Origin: Vampirovibrio chlorellavorus
Lineage (GTDB): Bacteria; Cyanobacteriota; Vampirovibrionia; Vampirovibrionales; Vampirovibrionaceae
Direction: 5' to 3'
Length of the DNA stretch: 64,000 nt
Assembly: GCA_903866275.1 (NCBI GenBank)
Contig: CAIPMU010000011.1
Location: forward strand, 1 to 64,000
Under the pieces are notes generated by a model, which was given only the letters and a program-made list of their open reading frames with translations, was not told the origin of the DNA and did not search any database. This document shows, in pieces, positions 613-8,883 of this stretch. How positions within the stretch are numbered: the first letter of the stretch is position 1; the number at the start of each line of letters is the position of its first letter. A program made the position numbers and the translations under genes.

Positions 613-1323
613 TTATTTCAGCACCACATGGATAAAGCGGGTGTAGTTTTGCGCTGCGTCTTGCAGGTTATCTTCCAGCACTTGCAGGCCATAAATGGAG
701 GCCAGCACTTTGCTGCCCATAACTGCGGTGTTATCCGGTAAAATTCGATGGGCCAGGGCTTCGGCGGTTTTGGCGTTGTCGACCATTTCGCCCTCGCCGC
801 TGGTTTGCTTAAGTTGCGGGTACTTGGTTTTTAAATTGGTTTTACATTGCGCCAGCACTTGCGAATGACACATCACGGTGTCAATTTTGGAAAACTCCTG
901 ATCCGGGCGAATCATGATGGCATGGGCAATTTTAATTTCAAACTCCCGGAGAATTTTCACAGGGGCCGATTCCAGCGCGGTGGTGGTTTCTTCCACATAC
1001 CCACCCACGGAATTATAAATCGCACACTGGCCCACATGAATTTCCCCACGCTGCAGGGCATCCATCACGTTGCCCGAGGTGTATAAATAGCGCACCTGGG
1101 CCGCATCGGGACTGTTGGCAAAGGGAGAGTGTTTTAAAAAATGCTGAATGGCTTCTTCGTTAAAGCTGCCTTGGCCGCCTTGAATGCCAAAAAGAATCGG
1201 GGTGGTCTGAACAGGGGAATCTGAAGGAGCGGCGGGATGGTTGTAAGCGATGACTGTGGAGGAAGAGAGTGGGTTGGAGCGCATGGTTTGAGTGGTACGA
1301 AGGGAATAATCGGGGTCGGTCAT
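613..1323 (-). CDS. pheA: Prephenate dehydratase lacking an ACT domain
   Basis: Converts prephenate to phenylpyruvate in phenylalanine synthesis, in the cytoplasm. The 236 residues hold the PDT signatures: GQGSFNEEA near residue 52, NSVGG near 105, CHSQVLAQC near 152, and the catalytic NYTRF near 227. The protein stops just after TRF, so the C-terminal ACT domain that gives phenylalanine feedback in most bacterial PDTs is absent. The first 40 residues look like a disordered extension. The start overlaps the chorismate mutase stop by four bases (ATGA), which indicates translational coupling. It is the last gene of the five-gene aromatic operon. The assignment is firm; the regulatory consequence is inferred. 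Confidence 0.9.
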   Translation of the reverse strand: MTDPDYSLRTTQTMRSNPLSSSTVIAYNHPAAPSDSPVQTTPILFGIQGGQGSFNEEAIQHFLKHSPFANSPDAAQVRYLYTSGNVMDALQRGEIHVGQCAIYNSVGGYVEETTTALESAPVKILREFEIKIAHAIMIRPDQEFSKIDTVMCHSQVLAQCKTNLKTKYPQLKQTSGEGEMVDNAKTAEALAHRILPDNTAVMGSKVLASIYGLQVLEDNLQDAAQNYTRFIHVVLK

Positions 1324-1628
1324 GAATGGGGCTCGCTATGGCTTTCTAATTTTAAACTGTACTCGTGGATTAAATGGTAAAGGGCCTCAATAAACTCGGG
1401 GCAGAGATCCAGTGCCTGGGCGCGTTGCAGGTTATTGTCCAAAACCTGACGCCAGCGATTGGCATCCAGCGGCTCCAGATTGCGGACTTTTTTATAGCGG
1501 CCAATGTCATCCACCAGCCGGGCGCGTTCGGCCAGCAGGGCCAATAAATTGGCATCCAGCGCGTCAATTTTTTGTCTTAAATCGTGCAGTTCATCGGTCA
1601 TGGTGATCATTTCATTCATCCGTTCCAT
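1320..1628 (-). CDS. Chorismate mutase, AroQ class
   Basis: Rearranges chorismate to prephenate. The 102 residues are all-helical, with the AroQ pattern: LRQKIDALDANLLALLAERARLV, then IGRYKK, then a helix ending LIHEYSLKLE. The first helix carries the conserved Arg and the Asp/Leu face of the active site. The ATG at 1628 is used here, but in-frame Met codons at residues 4, 7 and 10 are possible, and the last leads straight into the domain. It sits 16 bases after chorismate synthase and overlaps prephenate dehydratase by four bases, so the two act as consecutive unfused steps. In enterobacteria the same activities are fused in PheA. Confidence 0.88.
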   Translation of the reverse strand: MERMNEMITMTDELHDLRQKIDALDANLLALLAERARLVDDIGRYKKVRNLEPLDANRWRQVLDNNLQRAQALDLCPEFIEALYHLIHEYSLKLESHSEPHS

Positions 1629-1644: not shown

Positions 1645-2766
1645 TTAGGAGAATTGGGCAACCGACTCCGGGATGGAAGTCGATTGATTCTGCGCCGCGT
1701 GACGCAGATAGTGATCCATCATCACCAACGCGGCCATCGCTTCTACAATGGGCACCGCACGAGGCAACACACAGGGATCATGCCTTCCGATGGCGGCCAT
1801 GGTCACTTCTTCCTGCTCGCGGGTCACGGTGTGTTGCGTTTTGCTGATGGTCGACGTCGGTTTCACGGCCACCCGGAAATAAATGCTCTCCCCGTTGGAG
1901 ATGCCACCCAGCACGCCACCCGCGTGATTGGTGCGGGTGCGCACCCGCTCACCTTCGGTGTAAAAGGCATCGTTGTGCTCGCTGCCGCGCAGGTTGACAC
2001 CCGCGAACCCCGAACCGATTTCAAAGCCCTTCACCGCGTTAATGCTAAGCATGGCCTTGCCGAGATCGGCGTGCAATTTATCAAACACGGGCTCGCCCAA
2101 GCCCACAGGGGCATTTTTCACCAGACAACGAATCACACCACCCACCGAATCGCCGTCATCGCGCACGGTTTCGATGAGTGCAATCATGTGCGCCGCGGCC
2201 TCAGCATCCGGGCAGCGCACGATATTGGATTCCACTTGGGTCAGCGTCACCGATTCCGGATCAATCGCGGATTGCACCGGGCCGACTTGCTCCACATAGG
2301 CCACAATATCCATGCCCAATTGGGTCTTCAGAAATTTTTTGGCAATCGCCCCGGCAGCCACGCGGCCCAGGGTTTCACGCGCTGAAGAACGCCCGCCGCC
2401 CCGCCAGTCGCGCAGGCCGTACTTTTGCTGAAAGGTAAAATCGGCGTGGCCCGGCCGGTATAAATCCTGCAAATTGTTGTAATCTTCGGATTTTACATCC
2501 TTGTTAAAGGCCATCAACATGATGGGCGTGCCGGTGGTTTGGCCGTTCAACAAGCCGGAAAACACATGGATCTCGTCCTGTTCATTGCGCGGGGTGGTAA
2601 TGACGCTTTGGCCGGGACGACGGCGATCCAGCTCGTGCTGAATTTCCGCGATAGAAATGGGCAGGCCGGGCGGGCAGCCGTCAATCACCACGCCCACACC
2701 GCCGCCGTGGGATTCGCCGAAGGTGGTAATTCTAAAGAGATGTCCAAAAGAGTTTCCGGCTGTCAT
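1645..2766 (-). CDS. aroC: Chorismate synthase
   Basis: Makes chorismate from EPSP with reduced FMN, the last step of the shikimate trunk. The 373 residues match the family length and show its signatures: GESHG near residue 17, the RRRPGQ segment near 48, RPGHADFTF near 103, and [10 protein letters not shown] near 123. The C-terminal part keeps the conserved [14 protein letters not shown] segment. The start lies 59 bases after the aroA-aroK stop, and the gene runs into chorismate mutase after 16 bases, so all are probably one transcript. A long plus-strand open frame at 1654-2385 is a codon-bias shadow of this gene. Confidence 0.96.
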
Positions 2767-2825: not shown

Positions 2826-4847
2826 TTAAACGGCACAAACGGTCGAGTGATTTTCCAACGCCAAGCCCAGGGCTTGCAAAATTTCCGCCGCGACTTGGGC
2901 GGAACTGCGCTCGGCAGTCTCTATTGTGACCTGAGCGGCCTGGGCATACAAGGGCTGACGCATGCCAAACAGGGCTTCAAATTGGGCCTTGTTCCGCATC
3001 AGCGGGCGATTCTGATCCGAGCCGATGCGCTGGTAAACCGTGGTCAAGGGGGTTTCCAAAAAGATCACCGTCGCCGATTGCGCCAAGGCCCGCATGGCCC
3101 GATCGCTCATCACCACGCCGCCGCCGGTGGCAATCACCATTTGCTGCGCCGAGGCCAGTTCACAGGCGACCAATTCTTCCAGCGCCCGAAAATGGGGTTC
3201 GCCCTGGCGATCAAAAATTTCCGTCACACTTCCCCGACCGGAGCGCGCCACAATGTGGGCGTCCATGTCCACAAAATCAAAGCCCAACAAATCCGCTAAC
3301 CGCTGCCCCACGACACTCTTCCCTGCCCCCATAAAACCAATTAAAACGATTTTCTGGTGGTTTGGATGGGCTAAATTGGCGCTATTCGCAGCGGTCGCTT
3401 TCAATTCAGTGCCCGTTGAAATGGGTGACTCGCCCTCATTAGAGGAAGCAGAGGAGGCTGAGTCGCTCGCTTGCACGAGCTGAACGCCCATGCCCAACTG
3501 GCGCAAGGCCTCCCAGAATTCGGGATAGGTTTTATTCACCACCGGGGGATCTTCAATTTCCAGACCCGACAAACGGGCCCCTGCCACGGCAAACGCCATG
3601 GCCATGCGATGATCGCCATAAGTGGCAATGCGGGCGGCATGGGGATGCCCGCCATGAATCACCAGCGCATCGGGTTCGGCTTCGGTGCGAATGCCCAGCC
3701 TGGTGAGCTCCTGAGCCGTGGAAGCAATACGATCCGTTTCTTTCACCCGCAGGGATTTCAAACCCTCAATGCGGGTTACGCCGGGCGCGAAAGCGGCCAA
3801 CACCGCCAGCGTTTGAGCCTGATCCGGGCAGTCTTCCATATTGACCGTAATCGGCCGAATGGCTTTGGGGTTTCCGGTGAGGGTTAATTCATCGCCGCGC
3901 CATTCTAGCCGGTGGCCCATGTCTTTTAAAATCTGGGCAAAGCGCATGTCGGCCTGCACGGAGTTCGGGTTGAGATGCTTAATAGTAATACTGGAACCGG
4001 TCAAGGCCGCAATGGCCAAAAAGTAGGCCATACTGGAGGCATCGGGTTCCACGGCATAAGTTTGGGTTTGATACATTTGCCCAGCGGCAATGCTAAATTG
4101 CCGGTATTGCTGATGTTCCACCGTCACGCCAAAATCGCGCATGATGGCCATGGTCATTTCCAGATATGGCGTGGACACCGGATCGTCGGTGAGCGCAATG
4201 GTGATGGGCTGCGCCGTTTGATTTGCCTGAGCGGCCTGACCAGCCTGAACGAGGGGCGCAATCATCATCAGAGCGGAAATATACTGGCTACTGGTCGCAC
4301 CAGACACCGCAAAGCGATGAGCCTCAATGCGACTGGCATTGACCCGCACCGGCGGGTAGCCTTCGAGATCCAGATACTCAATATCGGCACCGATGGCCCG
4401 CAGGCTGTCCACCAGATCCCGCACCGGGCGCTTGTTCAGCCCCGGCTTGCCCAACAAGGTTTGCCGTCCGGGAATGACTGCCGCCAGCGCAATTAAAAAC
4501 CGCAACGTGGCCGCCGATAAATCCGCGTTCAGCTCGTAATCGCCCGGCTGAATCTCGGTGACGCTATTATGTACTTCAATCCAACGGGTGGTTTCATGGT
4601 TTTCATCTGGGTGAATGGTGGTTTGAATGCCCAACTGGTTCAGACAAGCCAGAATGGCCTGACTGTCATCGCTAAACAACGGATTCAGCACCCGCACCGG
4701 CGCGCCGTCTGGCTTGGGGGTCATGGCCGCCAGCAAGAGGGCCCGAATGGTGTAGCTCTTGGAGCCCGGCACGGTCACAGCGGCTGTCACCGGATGGCTC
4801 AGGCTCAGAGGCTGAAGAATCACGTGGTCTTCGCAAGGATTGCTCAT
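2826..4847 (-). CDS. aroA-aroK: EPSP synthase-shikimate kinase fusion
   Basis: One 673-residue polypeptide carries two steps. Residues 1-455 are EPSP synthase: SSQYISALMM, DASSMAYFL, RVKETDRI and GDHRMAMAFA are all present. Residues 495-673 are shikimate kinase: Walker A GFMGAGKS near 502, DMD for shikimate and magnesium, GEPHFR, ATGGGVV and the NRPLM lid. A Ser/Ala/Asn-rich linker of about 40 residues joins them. In the usual EPSPS NAGTAMRPL loop this protein has DLSAATLRFL (109-118). Anchored on the Arg, alanines 112-113 replace the usual Gly and Thr. The start overlaps the DAHP synthase stop by four bases. The enzymes act in reverse chain order (kinase last), so the fusion may be about dosage rather than channelling. 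Confidence 0.95.
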   Translation of the reverse strand: MSNPCEDHVILQPLSLSHPVTAAVTVPGSKSYTIRALLLAAMTPKPDGAPVRVLNPLFSDDSQAILACLNQLGIQTTIHPDENHETTRWIEVHNSVTEIQPGDYELNADLSAATLRFLIALAAVIPGRQTLLGKPGLNKRPVRDLVDSLRAIGADIEYLDLEGYPPVRVNASRIEAHRFAVSGATSSQYISALMMIAPLVQAGQAAQANQTAQPITIALTDDPVSTPYLEMTMAIMRDFGVTVEHQQYRQFSIAAGQMYQTQTYAVEPDASSMAYFLAIAALTGSSITIKHLNPNSVQADMRFAQILKDMGHRLEWRGDELTLTGNPKAIRPITVNMEDCPDQAQTLAVLAAFAPGVTRIEGLKSLRVKETDRIASTAQELTRLGIRTEAEPDALVIHGGHPHAARIATYGDHRMAMAFAVAGARLSGLEIEDPPVVNKTYPEFWEALRQLGMGVQLVQASDSASSASSNEGESPISTGTELKATAANSANLAHPNHQKIVLIGFMGAGKSVVGQRLADLLGFDFVDMDAHIVARSGRGSVTEIFDRQGEPHFRALEELVACELASAQQMVIATGGGVVMSDRAMRALAQSATVIFLETPLTTVYQRIGSDQNRPLMRNKAQFEALFGMRQPLYAQAAQVTIETAERSSAQVAAEILQALGLALENHSTVCAV

Positions 4848-5677
4848 GCCGGGATAGCTTTCCGTTCGACCAAAGTCGCGGCGGCAGCCACGGCGGCATC
4901 GACATTAGCCATCATAGCATCCAGCTGATCCCAGGTGATTTGCTGGGCGGCATCCGTCCAGGCCATGCGGGGGTTGGGGTGCACTTCAATCACCAGACCG
5001 TCGTAGGCGTGTTCAACCATCTCCATAGCCACCTGCTCCAGCTTGTCCACGGCACCGGCGATGTGGGAAATATCCAACACCATCGGCAGCTTGGTTTTGG
5101 CGCGAACGCGCATGGCCATCTCGGAATCGGCCACGTTGCGCAAGCCATCGGGGTTCGGGTGGTGCACATCCGGGGTGAAACCACGGTGGCAGATGATCAG
5201 GTTCTCGGGAGCCATGCCAGCATCGAGGGCGTGCTCCACAATGCCTTCCCAATGGGATTCGGAATGCCAGGGCTGGTTTTTCAGCATCAGCTTCACGCGG
5301 GAATCCTGGCTGGCAATGCGGGCGATGTCGCGTTGCACGAAGTGATTCTGGTTGCGGGCGCCAATCCACAGCAACAGTTGGCCGTTTTCGCCGAGATCCG
5401 GCAACACGCCGTCCATTACGGACTGGGCCTGTTCGCCCACCAGTACTTCGGTGCCGGGGTTAATGCCCATGCGAGCCGCTTCAGCCAGCAAGGGAATCCC
5501 TGCTTCTTTCAGACCGTCGAAGCCGGGCTTGGTGCGGGGCTTCCACAGGCTGATACGCACGAAGTCCACATTGCGCTGCTGGGCTTGTTCCAGCGAGAAC
5601 ATAATCTGATCGCGGCCTTCGGCGGAGCAGGGGCCGGCAATCAACATGGGCTTGTGGGTGGAATGGTGTTGCGTCAT
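4844..5677 (-). CDS. aroF: 3-deoxy-7-phosphoheptulonate synthase (type I beta-like, no regulatory domain)
   Basis: Condenses phosphoenolpyruvate and erythrose 4-phosphate to DAHP, the entry step of aromatic synthesis. The 277 residues cover only the TIM barrel: AGPCSAE near residue 14, SLWKPRTKPG near 43, LWIGARNQ near 103, ICHRGF near 162, and DISHIAG near 203. It resembles the catalytic part of enzymes that are fused to chorismate mutase in Bacteroidetes; here the mutase is a separate gene in the same operon. There is no ACT, ferredoxin-like or mutase domain for feedback. AGGAG lies 11 bases before the ATG. It is the first structural gene after the aromatic leader peptide and terminator. 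Confidence 0.93.
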   Translation of the reverse strand: MTQHHSTHKPMLIAGPCSAEGRDQIMFSLEQAQQRNVDFVRISLWKPRTKPGFDGLKEAGIPLLAEAARMGINPGTEVLVGEQAQSVMDGVLPDLGENGQLLLWIGARNQNHFVQRDIARIASQDSRVKLMLKNQPWHSESHWEGIVEHALDAGMAPENLIICHRGFTPDVHHPNPDGLRNVADSEMAMRVRAKTKLPMVLDISHIAGAVDKLEQVAMEMVEHAYDGLVIEVHPNPRMAWTDAAQQITWDQLDAMMANVDAAVAAAATLVERKAIPA

Positions 5678-5721: not shown

Positions 5722-5750
5722 AAAAAACAGCTCCCGTGTGTGGGAGCTGT
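5722..5750 (-). terminator. Intrinsic terminator in the aro operon leader (attenuator)
   Basis: Read on the minus strand, ACAGCTCCC, a six-base ACACAC loop and GGGAGCTGT form a perfect 9-bp stem, followed at once by six T. It lies between the leader peptide stop (29 bases upstream) and the aroF start (45 bases downstream), where a terminator only makes sense as an attenuator. The 5' arm CTCCC (5742-5746) can also pair with GGGAG inside the leader peptide gene (5798-5802), a possible competing antiterminator of five to six pairs. The hairpin is directly visible; the switching is inferred. Confidence 0.88.
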
Positions 5751-5779
5751 CTGTGAATCGAGTAAATCTTTTTTATGCT

Positions 5780-5854
5780 TTACACGTCAACAAACGACTC
5801 CCGCGGAAGCCAGTAATAAAAAAAGCTAAAATATTGTTGCGTGCGTGTATTCAT
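5780..5854 (-). CDS. Aromatic leader peptide of the aro operon
   Basis: A 24-codon minus-strand gene starts at ATG 5854 and stops at TAA 5780-5782. Residues 8-15 read YFSFFYYW, with one more Phe at 21, so 8 of 24 residues are Phe, Tyr or Trp. It is followed by an intrinsic terminator and then by DAHP synthase, the arrangement of ribosome-mediated attenuators such as those of trp and pheA. Stalling at scarce charged tRNA-Phe, -Tyr or -Trp would leave the downstream GGGAG free to pair with the terminator's 5' arm. No good ribosome binding site precedes the ATG, and the best promoter would start transcription only about 3 bases upstream, so translation may be leaderless. Confidence 0.85.
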   Translation of the reverse strand: MNTRTQQYFSFFYYWLPRESFVDV

Positions 5855-5863
5855 AATATTGAC

Positions 5864-5894
5864 ACCATAACCTAAGTCACCCCCACTTTGTCAA
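5864..5894 (-). promoter_or_regulatory. Candidate promoter of the aro operon
   Basis: On the minus strand, a consensus TTGACA (5889-5894) is followed after 18-19 bases by TTATGG or TATGGT (5864-5870). The -35 is perfect and the -10 is weak. The predicted RNA start is about 5857, three bases before the leader peptide ATG. That implies leaderless translation, unless another promoter lies upstream. Confidence 0.5.
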
Positions 5895-6043: not shown

Positions 6044-8059
6044 ATGTCACCTGATGTCATCAAACTTCGACTGTTTACGGGACGCCAACAGGCACCTGCA
6101 CCGGTCATACTGGAAAAAACCCACAGCCAAAGGCAAACCCAACCCATGGATCAAGCCCCCTACTGGTCAAGCAACGAAACCGCCCTACGCCGCAGTCATG
6201 CCCAGCATGCGGCACTCTTGGCGACCCTCCAGACCGTGCAGGCCACCACTGACTTTCAGCTGTGCAACACCCCCGCGGGGGACTACACCCTGCATTATGA
6301 GGGCGGTTTTCTGCATAGCCCGCAAGGAGCCATGCAGGAAGCCGCGGAAGCCGTTTTAAACCAGTGTCAACCGGGGCTGGGGCGCGCCCATTTGTTGATG
6401 GGGCTGGGCCTGGGTTACGTTCTGGATACGCTGTATCAGCACACCCCAGGGCAGATCGTGGTCTATGAACCCGACTTGCCCCTGCTGAAGTTCATTCTGG
6501 AAAACGTAAATCTGGCAGATGCCTGGGCATCAGGCCGGGTACAACTGGTCACCCACATCCCTGAGGTACTCAACGCCTTGCGTCCCCTGGTTGTGGGAGA
6601 AAACCCGCTGGATGTCATTCTGGTTCCCGGCGAAGCCCAGCGATTACACCGGGACATCCCGCCGCTGATGGCCCAACTGGTGGACATGGTGGAAGAGCGG
6701 ATTCGGGACTTCCGCACCGGACAGCACTTTCATCGGCAATGGATCCGCCAATTCTTCCAAAACCTGCCCCATTTTGCCCAAACCACCCCCTTTGAAGCCA
6801 TCGCCCCCACCTTTGCGAACAAGCCCGCGCTCATCATCGGGCGGGGCCCCTCGCTGGATGCAGCACTGGATGACATTCACGCCATGGCCGACGGGATGAC
6901 CCTGATTGCGGCGGGCAGTGCCTTACACGCCCTCTATCAGGCGGGCATTACCCCGGATATGGCCGTATTTTATGACCCCAACGGCGTGAAAGAACAATTA
7001 CACGGCTTGCCGGACAGCTATCTTCGCCAGATTATTTTCTGTATCAGCGCATTCACCGACCCGCTGGCCTTTGCCGCACCCAACCGAGCGAAAATCCTGT
7101 TTTACCCCCAAAGCGGCGAGGCCTTTGCCCACTGGCTGGCCGCCGAATGCCCGGAAGTCTCAGAATGCAAGGTATTGAGCCAGCCGTTGTTGCTAGAGGG
7201 CGGTGGAACCGTTTCCGTGGTGGCCATGCAACTCGCTTTGGCCTTGCACAGCAGCAGCATCACGCTCATCGGACAGGATCTGGCCTTTCCCAACCAGCAA
7301 GTTTATGCCGGTGGCATCGCGCTTCAGCAGGACGAAAATGGTCGATTGGCCCTGCCCCAAAGCGAGACCCTTTTCACGGCACCCGAAGCCATGACCACGG
7401 TGCTGGGACAGAACCATGAAAATCTGCCTGCATTAAAGGCCTACACCGGATTCATCCGCCATTTTGAGCGACTGGCCGAAGCCAACGCCCAAAGTAATCA
7501 GCCCATTTCACTCTTCAACGCCTCAATCGGCGGAGCCGCCATTGCGGGCTACACCCTAAAACCCCTCCGCGATTTCAGAGACACTGATGCCCCTTTCCTG
7601 CGCGATTTCTCCAGCGCACCTGACGGCCGCTCTACCGAATCAGCCAATGTGCTCGAAGCGCTTCGATTTGCCGTAACCCGCCTTCAGGGCGACCTGCATG
7701 CGTGTGTCCGACTGCATGAGGCCACATTGGCGATAAACGAGAACACGCCAGAGCCGCTGAACCAGATGCCCATAACCACAACATCCCAACCCAATCAGGC
7801 CTTGTTTGCGTTTTTGAATCAGCATCCACTCATTGCCCACTTTTTGCTGTTTGAGATGATTACCGTGCAACAGCGCTACAGGCTGGAACCAAACAACCCT
7901 GCCGCCATTGAAGCCAATCAGACCTTGCTAAACCAGAGCACGATGCAGTGCATTGCCCTGTTGCGCGAAGAAATTCTGCCCATGGTCATTCAGGCCCAGC
8001 AAACCCTGGAAGCCCAACGCCACGCCACAGCCCCGAAAGCTGTCCAGCAACGCACATAG
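6044..8059 (+). CDS. DUF115 / MAF-type motility-accessory or glycosyltransferase-like protein
   Basis: A 671-residue protein of the DUF115 family (6-hydroxymethylpterin pyrophosphokinase MptE-like; 'motility associated factor'). Members near flagellin genes add nonulosonic acids to flagellin. The core signature PALIIGRGPSLD at about 263-274 is followed by the ITPDMAVFYDPN segment. An N-terminal alpha/beta domain shows LLMGLGLGYVLD near 119, and a helical tail begins near 510. No flagellar or sugar-nucleotide gene is visible in the window, so the substrate is unknown; type IV pilin is possible. The start is uncertain: no good ribosome binding site precedes 6044, and Met 35 (6146) is an alternative. 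Confidence 0.72.
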   Translation: MSPDVIKLRLFTGRQQAPAPVILEKTHSQRQTQPMDQAPYWSSNETALRRSHAQHAALLATLQTVQATTDFQLCNTPAGDYTLHYEGGFLHSPQGAMQEAAEAVLNQCQPGLGRAHLLMGLGLGYVLDTLYQHTPGQIVVYEPDLPLLKFILENVNLADAWASGRVQLVTHIPEVLNALRPLVVGENPLDVILVPGEAQRLHRDIPPLMAQLVDMVEERIRDFRTGQHFHRQWIRQFFQNLPHFAQTTPFEAIAPTFANKPALIIGRGPSLDAALDDIHAMADGMTLIAAGSALHALYQAGITPDMAVFYDPNGVKEQLHGLPDSYLRQIIFCISAFTDPLAFAAPNRAKILFYPQSGEAFAHWLAAECPEVSECKVLSQPLLLEGGGTVSVVAMQLALALHSSSITLIGQDLAFPNQQVYAGGIALQQDENGRLALPQSETLFTAPEAMTTVLGQNHENLPALKAYTGFIRHFERLAEANAQSNQPISLFNASIGGAAIAGYTLKPLRDFRDTDAPFLRDFSSAPDGRSTESANVLEALRFAVTRLQGDLHACVRLHEATLAINENTPEPLNQMPITTTSQPNQALFAFLNQHPLIAHFLLFEMITVQQRYRLEPNNPAAIEANQTLLNQSTMQCIALLREEILPMVIQAQQTLEAQRHATAPKAVQQRT

Positions 8060-8202
8060 ACTGCTGGATGCCCTAAACCGACCAAACGGCCCATACAGGT
8101 TGAGCAAAACGGGGGGCCTTCCGTTAGTCCGTCGAGGCATTGTCGTCGGCATGGCATCGGGAGCATACTGATGGAACTCGTCAAGCGCCCCTCAATACCC
8201 AT

Positions 8203-8210
8203 AAAGGAGA
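8203..8210 (+). promoter_or_regulatory. Strong ribosome binding site that fixes the zinc-ribbon gene start
   Basis: AAAGGAGA lies five bases before ATG 8216. It argues against the longer reading from ATG 8171, which has no comparable site and would add 15 residues before the zinc ribbon. Confidence 0.7.
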
Positions 8211-8215
8211 CGCCC

Positions 8216-8431
8216 ATGTTTCAGATTTGCCCGGACTGCAGCAACGACAAACTCAAGGTGAAAACTCTGGAAAAACGCCTGTACGATCCTGCAACAACCC
8301 GCACCACGGTTCATCCGGGAATCGATATGGTGGAATACCATTGCGCGGTCTGTGGCTGGACCATCCTCGTGGAAGACTCCCCCTCCGAGCCGACCAGTCG
8401 CATCCCGGCGCCGACCAGCACCCCAGCCTAA
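8216..8431 (+). CDS. Small zinc-ribbon protein
   Basis: A 71-residue protein. CPDC near residue 5 and CAVC near 44 form a likely four-cysteine zinc ribbon, and a Ser/Pro/Thr-rich tail follows. The shared features CPxCxN, LEKRL and a second CxxC make it look related to the small gene at 10956-11174. I do not recognise a family function; such ribbons bind nucleic acid or protein partners. It faces the convergent gene at 8488. The 156 bases upstream, after the MAF gene, show no clear terminator. Confidence 0.6.
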   Translation: MFQICPDCSNDKLKVKTLEKRLYDPATTRTTVHPGIDMVEYHCAVCGWTILVEDSPSEPTSRIPAPTSTPA

Positions 8432-8487
8432 TAAAGCCAGCCAGTATCCCAGTCCAATAAACCCCATCCGATAAACACAGCGACGCT

Positions 8488-8883
8488 TTACTCGGGCGCT
8501 ATTTCAGCCGACGACTCTGAAGCGTGCCGCTCAGCAGCCTCACCCGCAAACGATAGCAGACGGCCGACCGGAGACTCCGGGCGCGCCTTCCGTTCAGTGA
8601 CAGTACCGCACTCTGCGGGACCGTTGGTTTCAAACAGTTGCAAGGTGGTATCTACCAGATTTTCAATAAACTTTTCCCCGGCCTGCCACTGCTGCCCTTT
8701 TTCGACGTAGTAAAACGCCTGATCCGAGATTGCCATAGCCAGCAAAAACGTCATAAACTCTTCGGAAATTTCTTGCCGTTGCTCTTCCAGTAGCGTGAGC
8801 AACTCCTTTGCAGCCTGACGTAGCTGCTTGCTCTTTTCGCTTCTGGCCTTCCGGGATTCGGCAAGATTTACAACACTATCCAT
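8488..8883 (-). CDS. Hypothetical helical protein
   Basis: The 131 residues are not recognised. Residues 1-45 are charged and predicted helical or coiled coil (SRKARSEKSKQLRQAAKELL, then LEEQRQEISEEF). Residues 45-90 look like a globular helical segment with aromatic residues, and the last 40 are probably disordered and acidic. GGGAG seven bases before ATG 8883 supports the start. It follows the hemerythrin-cupin gene in the same direction after 132 bases, so co-transcription is possible but unproven. There is no membrane segment or signal peptide. Confidence 0.6.
   Translation of the reverse strand: MDSVVNLAESRKARSEKSKQLRQAAKELLTLLEEQRQEISEEFMTFLLAMAISDQAFYYVEKGQQWQAGEKFIENLVDTTLQLFETNGPAECGTVTERKARPESPVGRLLSFAGEAAERHASESSAEIAPE

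Follow-up and report, generated by a model that had tools for sequence, protein, structure and literature searches.

A predicted aromatic amino acid attenuator upstream of the aroF operon of Vampirovibrio chlorellavorus and related leaders in Cyanobacteriota and Patescibacteria

Organization of the aroF operon and its leader

A five-gene operon (aroF, aroA-aroK, aroC, and the genes of chorismate mutase and prephenate dehydratase) lies behind a short leader gene on the minus strand of the window, that is, the whole stretch of 64,000 nucleotides that was analysed. The following features were located in this region:

5889..5894, minus strand: -35 box TTGACA, present in the sequence and matching the consensus
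5864..5869, minus strand: probable -10 box TATGGT, a weak match with a long spacer of 19 nt
5780..5854, minus strand: leader peptide gene of 24 codons, MNTRTQQYFSFFYYWLPRESFVDV, with counterparts in congeners and in CPR
5810..5833, minus strand: control codons YFSFFYYW (codons 8–15), read from the sequence
5795..5812, minus strand: protector hairpin 1:2, TGGCTTCCGCGGGAGTCG, directly 3' of the control codons
5790..5802, minus strand: antiterminator arm 2, GGGAGTCGTTTGT, within the leader frame
5742..5754, minus strand: arm 3, ACAGACAGCTCCC, common to antiterminator and terminator
5722..5751, minus strand: intrinsic terminator 3:4 with T6 (-17.8 kcal/mol), also recovered by a consensus scan
4844..5677, minus strand: aroF, a DAHP synthase with a single domain, from a divergent subfamily also present in Patescibacteria (PF00793, 75 bits)
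2826..4847, minus strand: aroA-aroK fusion, EPSP synthase and shikimate kinase (TIGR01356 over the cut-off, PF01202)
1645..2766, minus strand: aroC, chorismate synthase (TIGR00033 over the cut-off)
1320..1628, minus strand: chorismate mutase of the AroQ type (PF01817)
613..1323, minus strand: prephenate dehydratase (PF00800 only)

AroF was matched by the NCBIfam DAHP synthase models below their cut-off, and its nearest solved chains are DAHP synthases. The gene starts at 5677 with AGGAG just before it, and the start of aroA-aroK overlaps it. Since the upstream neighbour (6044..8059, plus strand) is divergent, the operon needs its own promoter between both genes. The earlier note had placed the common trunk, the mutase, and the dehydratase under the control of the leader. 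The latter two genes are present, together with four of the seven trunk steps (aroF, aroK, aroA, and aroC); aroB, aroD/Q, and aroE are not part of the operon. No ACT domain was detected in the prephenate dehydratase (613–1323) with Pfam, and feedback by Phe on this enzyme may therefore be missing.

The leader gene (5854..5780, ATG to TAA) encodes MNTRTQQYFSFFYYWLPRESFVDV, in which eight of the 24 residues are aromatic (Y8, F9, F11, F12, Y13, Y14, W15, and F21). Its stop codon is followed after 29 bases by the 9-bp terminator stem, formed by ACAGCTCCC (5750–5742) and GGGAGCTGT (5735–5727), with T6 at 5727–5722. The coordinates and counts reported previously for the leader, the stem, T6, and TTGACA were all correct. 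Short ORFs with at least five aromatic residues in eight occurred six times in the 64-kb window (both strands), and only the leader had a terminator behind it.

TTGACA or TTGACT was found upstream of the leader in nearly all relatives, and the congeners carried TAAACT or TAAAGT at the -10 position. The predicted transcription start is a few bases at most from the leader ATG, with a predicted 5' UTR of about 2 nt. No convincing Shine-Dalgarno match was observed at the window leader or at most leaders of its relatives. In most leaders, 6–13 nt separated the end of the -10-like box from the start codon; three CPR leaders (L033, L050, and L052) fitted the leaderless pattern poorly. The short distance between the -10-like box and the start codon, together with the lack of a convincing Shine-Dalgarno sequence, suggests leaderless or nearly leaderless translation, which makes the earlier suggestion of a leaderless gene plausible for the window and for most relatives. 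The ilvB leader of Corynebacterium glutamicum is reported to be translated without a ribosome binding site (Morbach 2000, as cited by PMC4046766).

Alternative folds of the leader RNA

The pairing of GGGAG in the leader with the CTCCC arm of the terminator, proposed from the first inspection of the sequence, is present (5802–5798 with 5746–5742) and extends with mismatches to GGGAGTCGTTTGT and ACAGACAGCTCCC. None of 300 dinucleotide-shuffled spacers gave an antiterminator fold as strong as that of the window leader (z -3.5). The mean z over 18 leaders of the window type was -3.2 against dinucleotide-shuffled spacers, with two CPR leaders (L035 and L051) individually unconvincing. A MAFFT alignment of these 18 leaders placed the arms out of register and was replaced by separate folds of each leader with shuffles. 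All 18 followed one plan of control codons, hairpin 1:2, antiterminator 2:3, and terminator 3:4; in most of them, the antiterminator enclosed a variable inner hairpin. The aromatic share of the run in the 18 leaders was 94% in frame vs. 33% and 38% in the other two frames. The distance from the end of the aromatic run to arm 2 was 12–16 nt in nearly all leaders, roughly the spacing at which a stalled ribosome would hide the 5' strand of hairpin 1:2 without covering arm 2.

Folding the leader in both states, a check suggested in the earlier note, showed that simulated stalls switch the computed structure between antiterminator and terminator. For stalls at Y13–W15, the terminator was favoured in the equilibrium fold of the full leader, and the switch would therefore need to operate kinetically.

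Conservation in Vampirovibrio and Patescibacteria

Vampirovibrio belongs to a class of the cyanobacterial phylum whose members are not photosynthetic. The closest AroF loci belonged to Vampirovibrio, one of them to V. chlorellavorus NCIMB 11383, and leader and terminator preceded aroF in all four Vampirovibrio species carrying this gene, which made up the genus sample. A terminator also accompanied each leader of the congeners, MKNTRWQNSFYFFYFYGFPVGVVC (two genomes) and MNTRPQQSFYFFYFYGFRQGDVC. Outside the genus, the most similar AroF proteins were those of Patescibacteria (49–58% identity), those from the rest of the class being about 30% identical. Among the Patescibacteria loci with the closest AroF, 16 could be assessed and 15 had a leader and a terminator, for example MNIQSQVNYFWFYFATRREVS, MKLTQNYFWFYFTSPKEG, MSSAQAWFYFYFTSLTGR, and MNKFAAFYFYFTSLTGR; the contig of one further locus (L053) was cut. 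The locus L037 had no leader upstream of aroF, as the gene is located directly behind trpA. The AroF subtype itself was rare in Patescibacteria (3 of 380 sampled genomes), with 13 of 82 in the order of one carrier. The aromatic codons and the hairpin are thus kept in relatives, as the earlier note had expected of a genuine leader, and this conservation of the arrangement places the leader beyond chance. A covariance model built from nine CPR leaders found the window site as its sole match in the 3.0-Mb genome, albeit a weak one (21.6 bits, E 2.9).

Two Patescibacteria loci had additional genes. In a Pacebacteria genome, the aromatic leader (L034:78-175, plus strand) heads a longer operon, in which genes resembling a PfkB-type kinase and a class II aldolase, according to their translations, precede aroF, aroB, and aroA. 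At another Patescibacteria locus (L054:1139-1247 and downstream, plus strand), a short ORF is inserted between the aromatic leader and aroF.

Distribution and covariation in the phylum

The CPR-leader model also matched other genera of Vampirovibrionia, in which the DAHP synthase is only about 30% identical, and an ORF scan confirmed leaders in these genera, e.g., MNRNTNTYFYFYFFSRACRSCED. Of 73 DAHP synthase loci, among which a few genomes are counted twice, 36 had a leader and a terminator upstream; control sequences totalling 471 kb gave eight such sites, one of which was the real L034 leader. Among large-genome members of the phylum outside the class, at least one leader was present at each of 24 loci (L076–L099), and 21 of these carried both types in tandem, YFYFWFR.VHR[EG] (type 1) and WFYGFYFWPR.SSG (type 2). 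Nearly all leaders at the 12 loci inspected had their own terminator. Tandem leaders were also observed in three Vampirovibrionia genomes of one family (L007, L058, and L062). No leader was found at any of 20 loci of a paralogous DAHP synthase (L106–L125).

In the type-1 antiterminator (28 sequences), 95.1% of cells could pair, vs. 25–53% in slid controls, and double changes occurred in six of 11 pairs. Double-change cells numbered 24 vs. 7.0 in shuffles, none of 500 shuffles being as high; the type-1 terminator paired in 100% of cells. The corresponding values for type 2 (17 sequences) were 85.9% pairing and 10 double-change cells (0 of 500 shuffles as high). Both alignments were made with MAFFT and not fitted to the structure, and the shuffles ignore relatedness. 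The conserved VHR and SSG ends of the peptides are explained by their role as RNA arms. In one type-1 leader (L095:2511-2624, minus strand), the frame ends early (MFTANSYFYFWYP) with the antiterminator arm and its pairing intact, which indicates that the function of the RNA is separable from that of the peptide.

Proposed mechanism and amino acids sensed

Clustered codons for the products of the pathway, a terminator before the first gene, and a phased antiterminator that excludes this terminator are all found at the locus. Together with the conservation in relatives, they support the original proposal of an attenuator with competing hairpins before a shikimate/Phe operon, and we consider classical ribosome-mediated attenuation of transcription highly probable for the aroF operon. 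The transcript would begin at the leader ATG or immediately upstream of it, and the leader would at once be translated by a ribosome. With ample charged tRNA-Phe and tRNA-Tyr, the ribosome would reach the stop codon and cover arm 2; arms 3 and 4 would then form the terminator, and transcription would stop before aroF. A shortage of charged Phe or Tyr tRNA would stall the ribosome in YFSFFYY, where it would hide the 5' strand of the protector hairpin; arm 2, left free in this way, would pair with arm 3 while arm 4 has yet to be transcribed. The antiterminated polymerase would proceed into aroF, aroA-aroK, aroC, and the genes of chorismate mutase and prephenate dehydratase.

The earlier note had ascribed sensing of all three aromatic amino acids to the leader. 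The Phe and Tyr control codons of the window leader are located 13–31 nt before arm 2, and the single Trp codon, W15, ends the run at 10 nt from it. A ribosome stalled at W15 would probably cover the antiterminator arm; for this stall, the computed antiterminator dropped from -21.1 to -11.7 kcal/mol, and a Trp stall is expected to work poorly in the window species. Within the genus, Trp was found in the run of the window species only and was absent from that of the three congeners. In addition, trpE of the window genome has a separate WWW leader, MFEQSQQAPAQGWWWRGFANLPAGLG, with a terminator, and leaders of this kind, also with a terminator, precede trpE in the three congeners (L126–L128). The codons thus fit the operons, Trp codons being found in the Trp branch and mainly Phe and Tyr codons in the trunk/Phe operon, which also provides an internal control. 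Control by Phe and Tyr is therefore expected for the window leader, and Trp sensing is doubtful in view of the placement of W15, the runs of the congeners, and the WWW leader. The WWW leader of the window genome (L129, G000:C9) is located upstream of a trpE-like gene at 7800–8558.

The same attenuator might nevertheless respond to Phe, Tyr, and Trp alike and act as an overall gauge of aromatic-tRNA charging. W15 does belong to the run in the window species, and Trp is present in 27 of 28 type-1 and all 17 type-2 leaders of the cyanobacterial type, as well as in most CPR leaders, there at 22–30 nt from arm 2; all three amino acids occur together in 44 of the 45 type-1 and type-2 leaders. The presence of a codon is no proof of sensing, since the aroR leader of C. 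glutamicum contains a Tyr codon, yet Tyr availability had no effect (PMC11802643). Given also the weakened antiterminator of the W15 stall, the congeners without Trp in the run, and the trpE leader, we regard a three-amino-acid gauge as possible but rather unlikely for the window leader.

A terminator of the ordinary or protein-controlled kind, preceded by a short ORF that is incidental or by U-rich RNA that is not translated, is an improbable reading of the locus. The U-rich codons and the lack of a Shine-Dalgarno sequence would agree with this explanation; the frame-specific aromatic content with its constant phasing to arm 2, the in-frame Tyr and Trp codons kept across two phyla, and the presence of leaders at all 24 loci of one gene vs. 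none of the 20 of its paralogue argue against it. Control by a T-box, a riboswitch, or another ligand-binding RNA, which would also agree with a structured 5' leader that can form a terminator and an antiterminator, is very improbable, as no Rfam riboswitch or T-box was detected at gathering thresholds and the best match below threshold was the Phe leader peptide family. Equally remote is a function of the short peptide itself (e.g., as a small membrane peptide), with its site before aroF being secondary: the aromatic peptide is conserved, but outside the run its sequence varies except for the parts that serve as RNA arms (the VHR and SSG ends of cyanobacterial leaders), and L095 retains the pairing without the peptide end.

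Origin and significance of the attenuator

In a phylogenetic tree, AroF of Vampirovibrio and CPR grouped together behind a 100/100 branch, far from the other sampled sequences. The tree covered this phylum and Patescibacteria with few cyanobacterial A-type proteins and contained long branches, and it supports only the split of the Vampirovibrio and CPR group from the rest. No match to the ancestral-type DAHP synthase was found in the window genome at 1e-30. It is likely that the ancestral enzyme was replaced by horizontal transfer in the Vampirovibrio lineage. In similarity to the Vampirovibrio leader, both a CPR leader (L036) and a leader from the family to which Vampirovibrio belongs (L029) scored above all or nearly all shuffles. 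We lean slightly toward the view that mixed attenuators are ancient in the phylum and were in tandem before oxygenic cyanobacteria and Vampirovibrionia split, and that aroF of Vampirovibrio was replaced by the one shared with Patescibacteria, which has the same kind of attenuator; gene and attenuator possibly moved together. In a survey of four Rfam motifs from 2013, amino acid attenuators were regarded as possibly gamma-proteobacterial in origin, with few transfers (PMC3766115). A family across Cyanobacteriota and some Patescibacteria argues against this picture.

A tiny gene rich in Phe and Tyr codons seems to turn on the aromatic pathway during a shortage of charged tRNAs. Unannotated switches of the same type are found throughout the cyanobacterial phylum and also in some ultra-small bacteria. 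No extra regulatory domain was found in the window DAHP synthase; as the dehydratase also lacks a detectable ACT domain, attenuation may carry much of the feedback in the aromatic pathway. DAHP synthase gates the entry of carbon into aromatics, also in those photosynthetic cyanobacteria that are employed in bioproduction, and the attenuator family represents a directly testable and possibly multivalent sensor.

Comparison with known attenuators

The aroR leader of the C. glutamicum aroF operon reportedly goes back to work by Neshat in 2014. In the earlier note, the aromatic attenuators known so far were taken to respond to a single amino acid and to act on a single branch. This is overstated, as aroF is preceded by one known attenuator, aroR (PMC11802643, PMC4046766), and by a predicted one, uORFC-13-1 (PMC8632094). 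According to PMC11802643 and PMC4046766, aroR (Phe-Tyr-Phe) attenuates the aroF operon and hence resembles the window leader as an aromatic leader peptide with an attenuator before a DAHP synthase operon. It differs, as far as these descriptions allow comparison, in its shorter run, in that no Trp is reported, in its response to Phe but not to Tyr, and in its phylum. uORFC-13-1 is a predicted uORF with at least one Phe codon and a terminator, located exclusively upstream of aroF and known from 24 examples in Acholeplasma and environmental sequences (PMC8632094). Compared by description, it differs from the window leader in having a ribosome binding site, and no mixed run is described for it; its environmental members could overlap with our CPR set. 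No such family was among the Rfam matches.

In Rfam scans of the window and related leaders at gathering and low thresholds, no family reached its cut-off. The best match of the window was Phe_leader (RF01859; 28.6 bits, E 0.0058 on 301 bases), and L038 reached 47.7 bits with this family, both below its gathering score of 55. The pheA leader of Escherichia coli, represented by RF01859, likewise has aromatic codons followed by competing hairpins; it differs in its Phe codons and in controlling one branch. The trp leader of E. coli (Trp_leader, RF00513) has the classical four-segment logic with Trp codons only, and the window genome carries its own leader of this kind at trpE. The ilvGMEDA and thr leaders are multivalent attenuators with codons for several amino acids. 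These are branched-chain or Thr/Ile codons and not aromatic ones.

No aromatic attenuator of Cyanobacteriota or Patescibacteria was found described in the open-access literature, in line with the earlier note, which knew of no such leader in a cyanobacterium-like lineage. Ribosome-mediated attenuation is a known mechanism, and DAHP synthase is known as its target from aroR and, as a prediction, from uORFC-13-1. What appears to be new is a family of mixed aromatic attenuators on the entry step of the shikimate pathway, mostly in tandem in cyanobacteria, and the breadth of its occurrence: upstream of one DAHP synthase type, mixed Phe/Tyr/Trp leaders are found in other Vampirovibrionia and, mostly as tandem pairs with covarying base pairs, in large-genome relatives of cyanobacteria.
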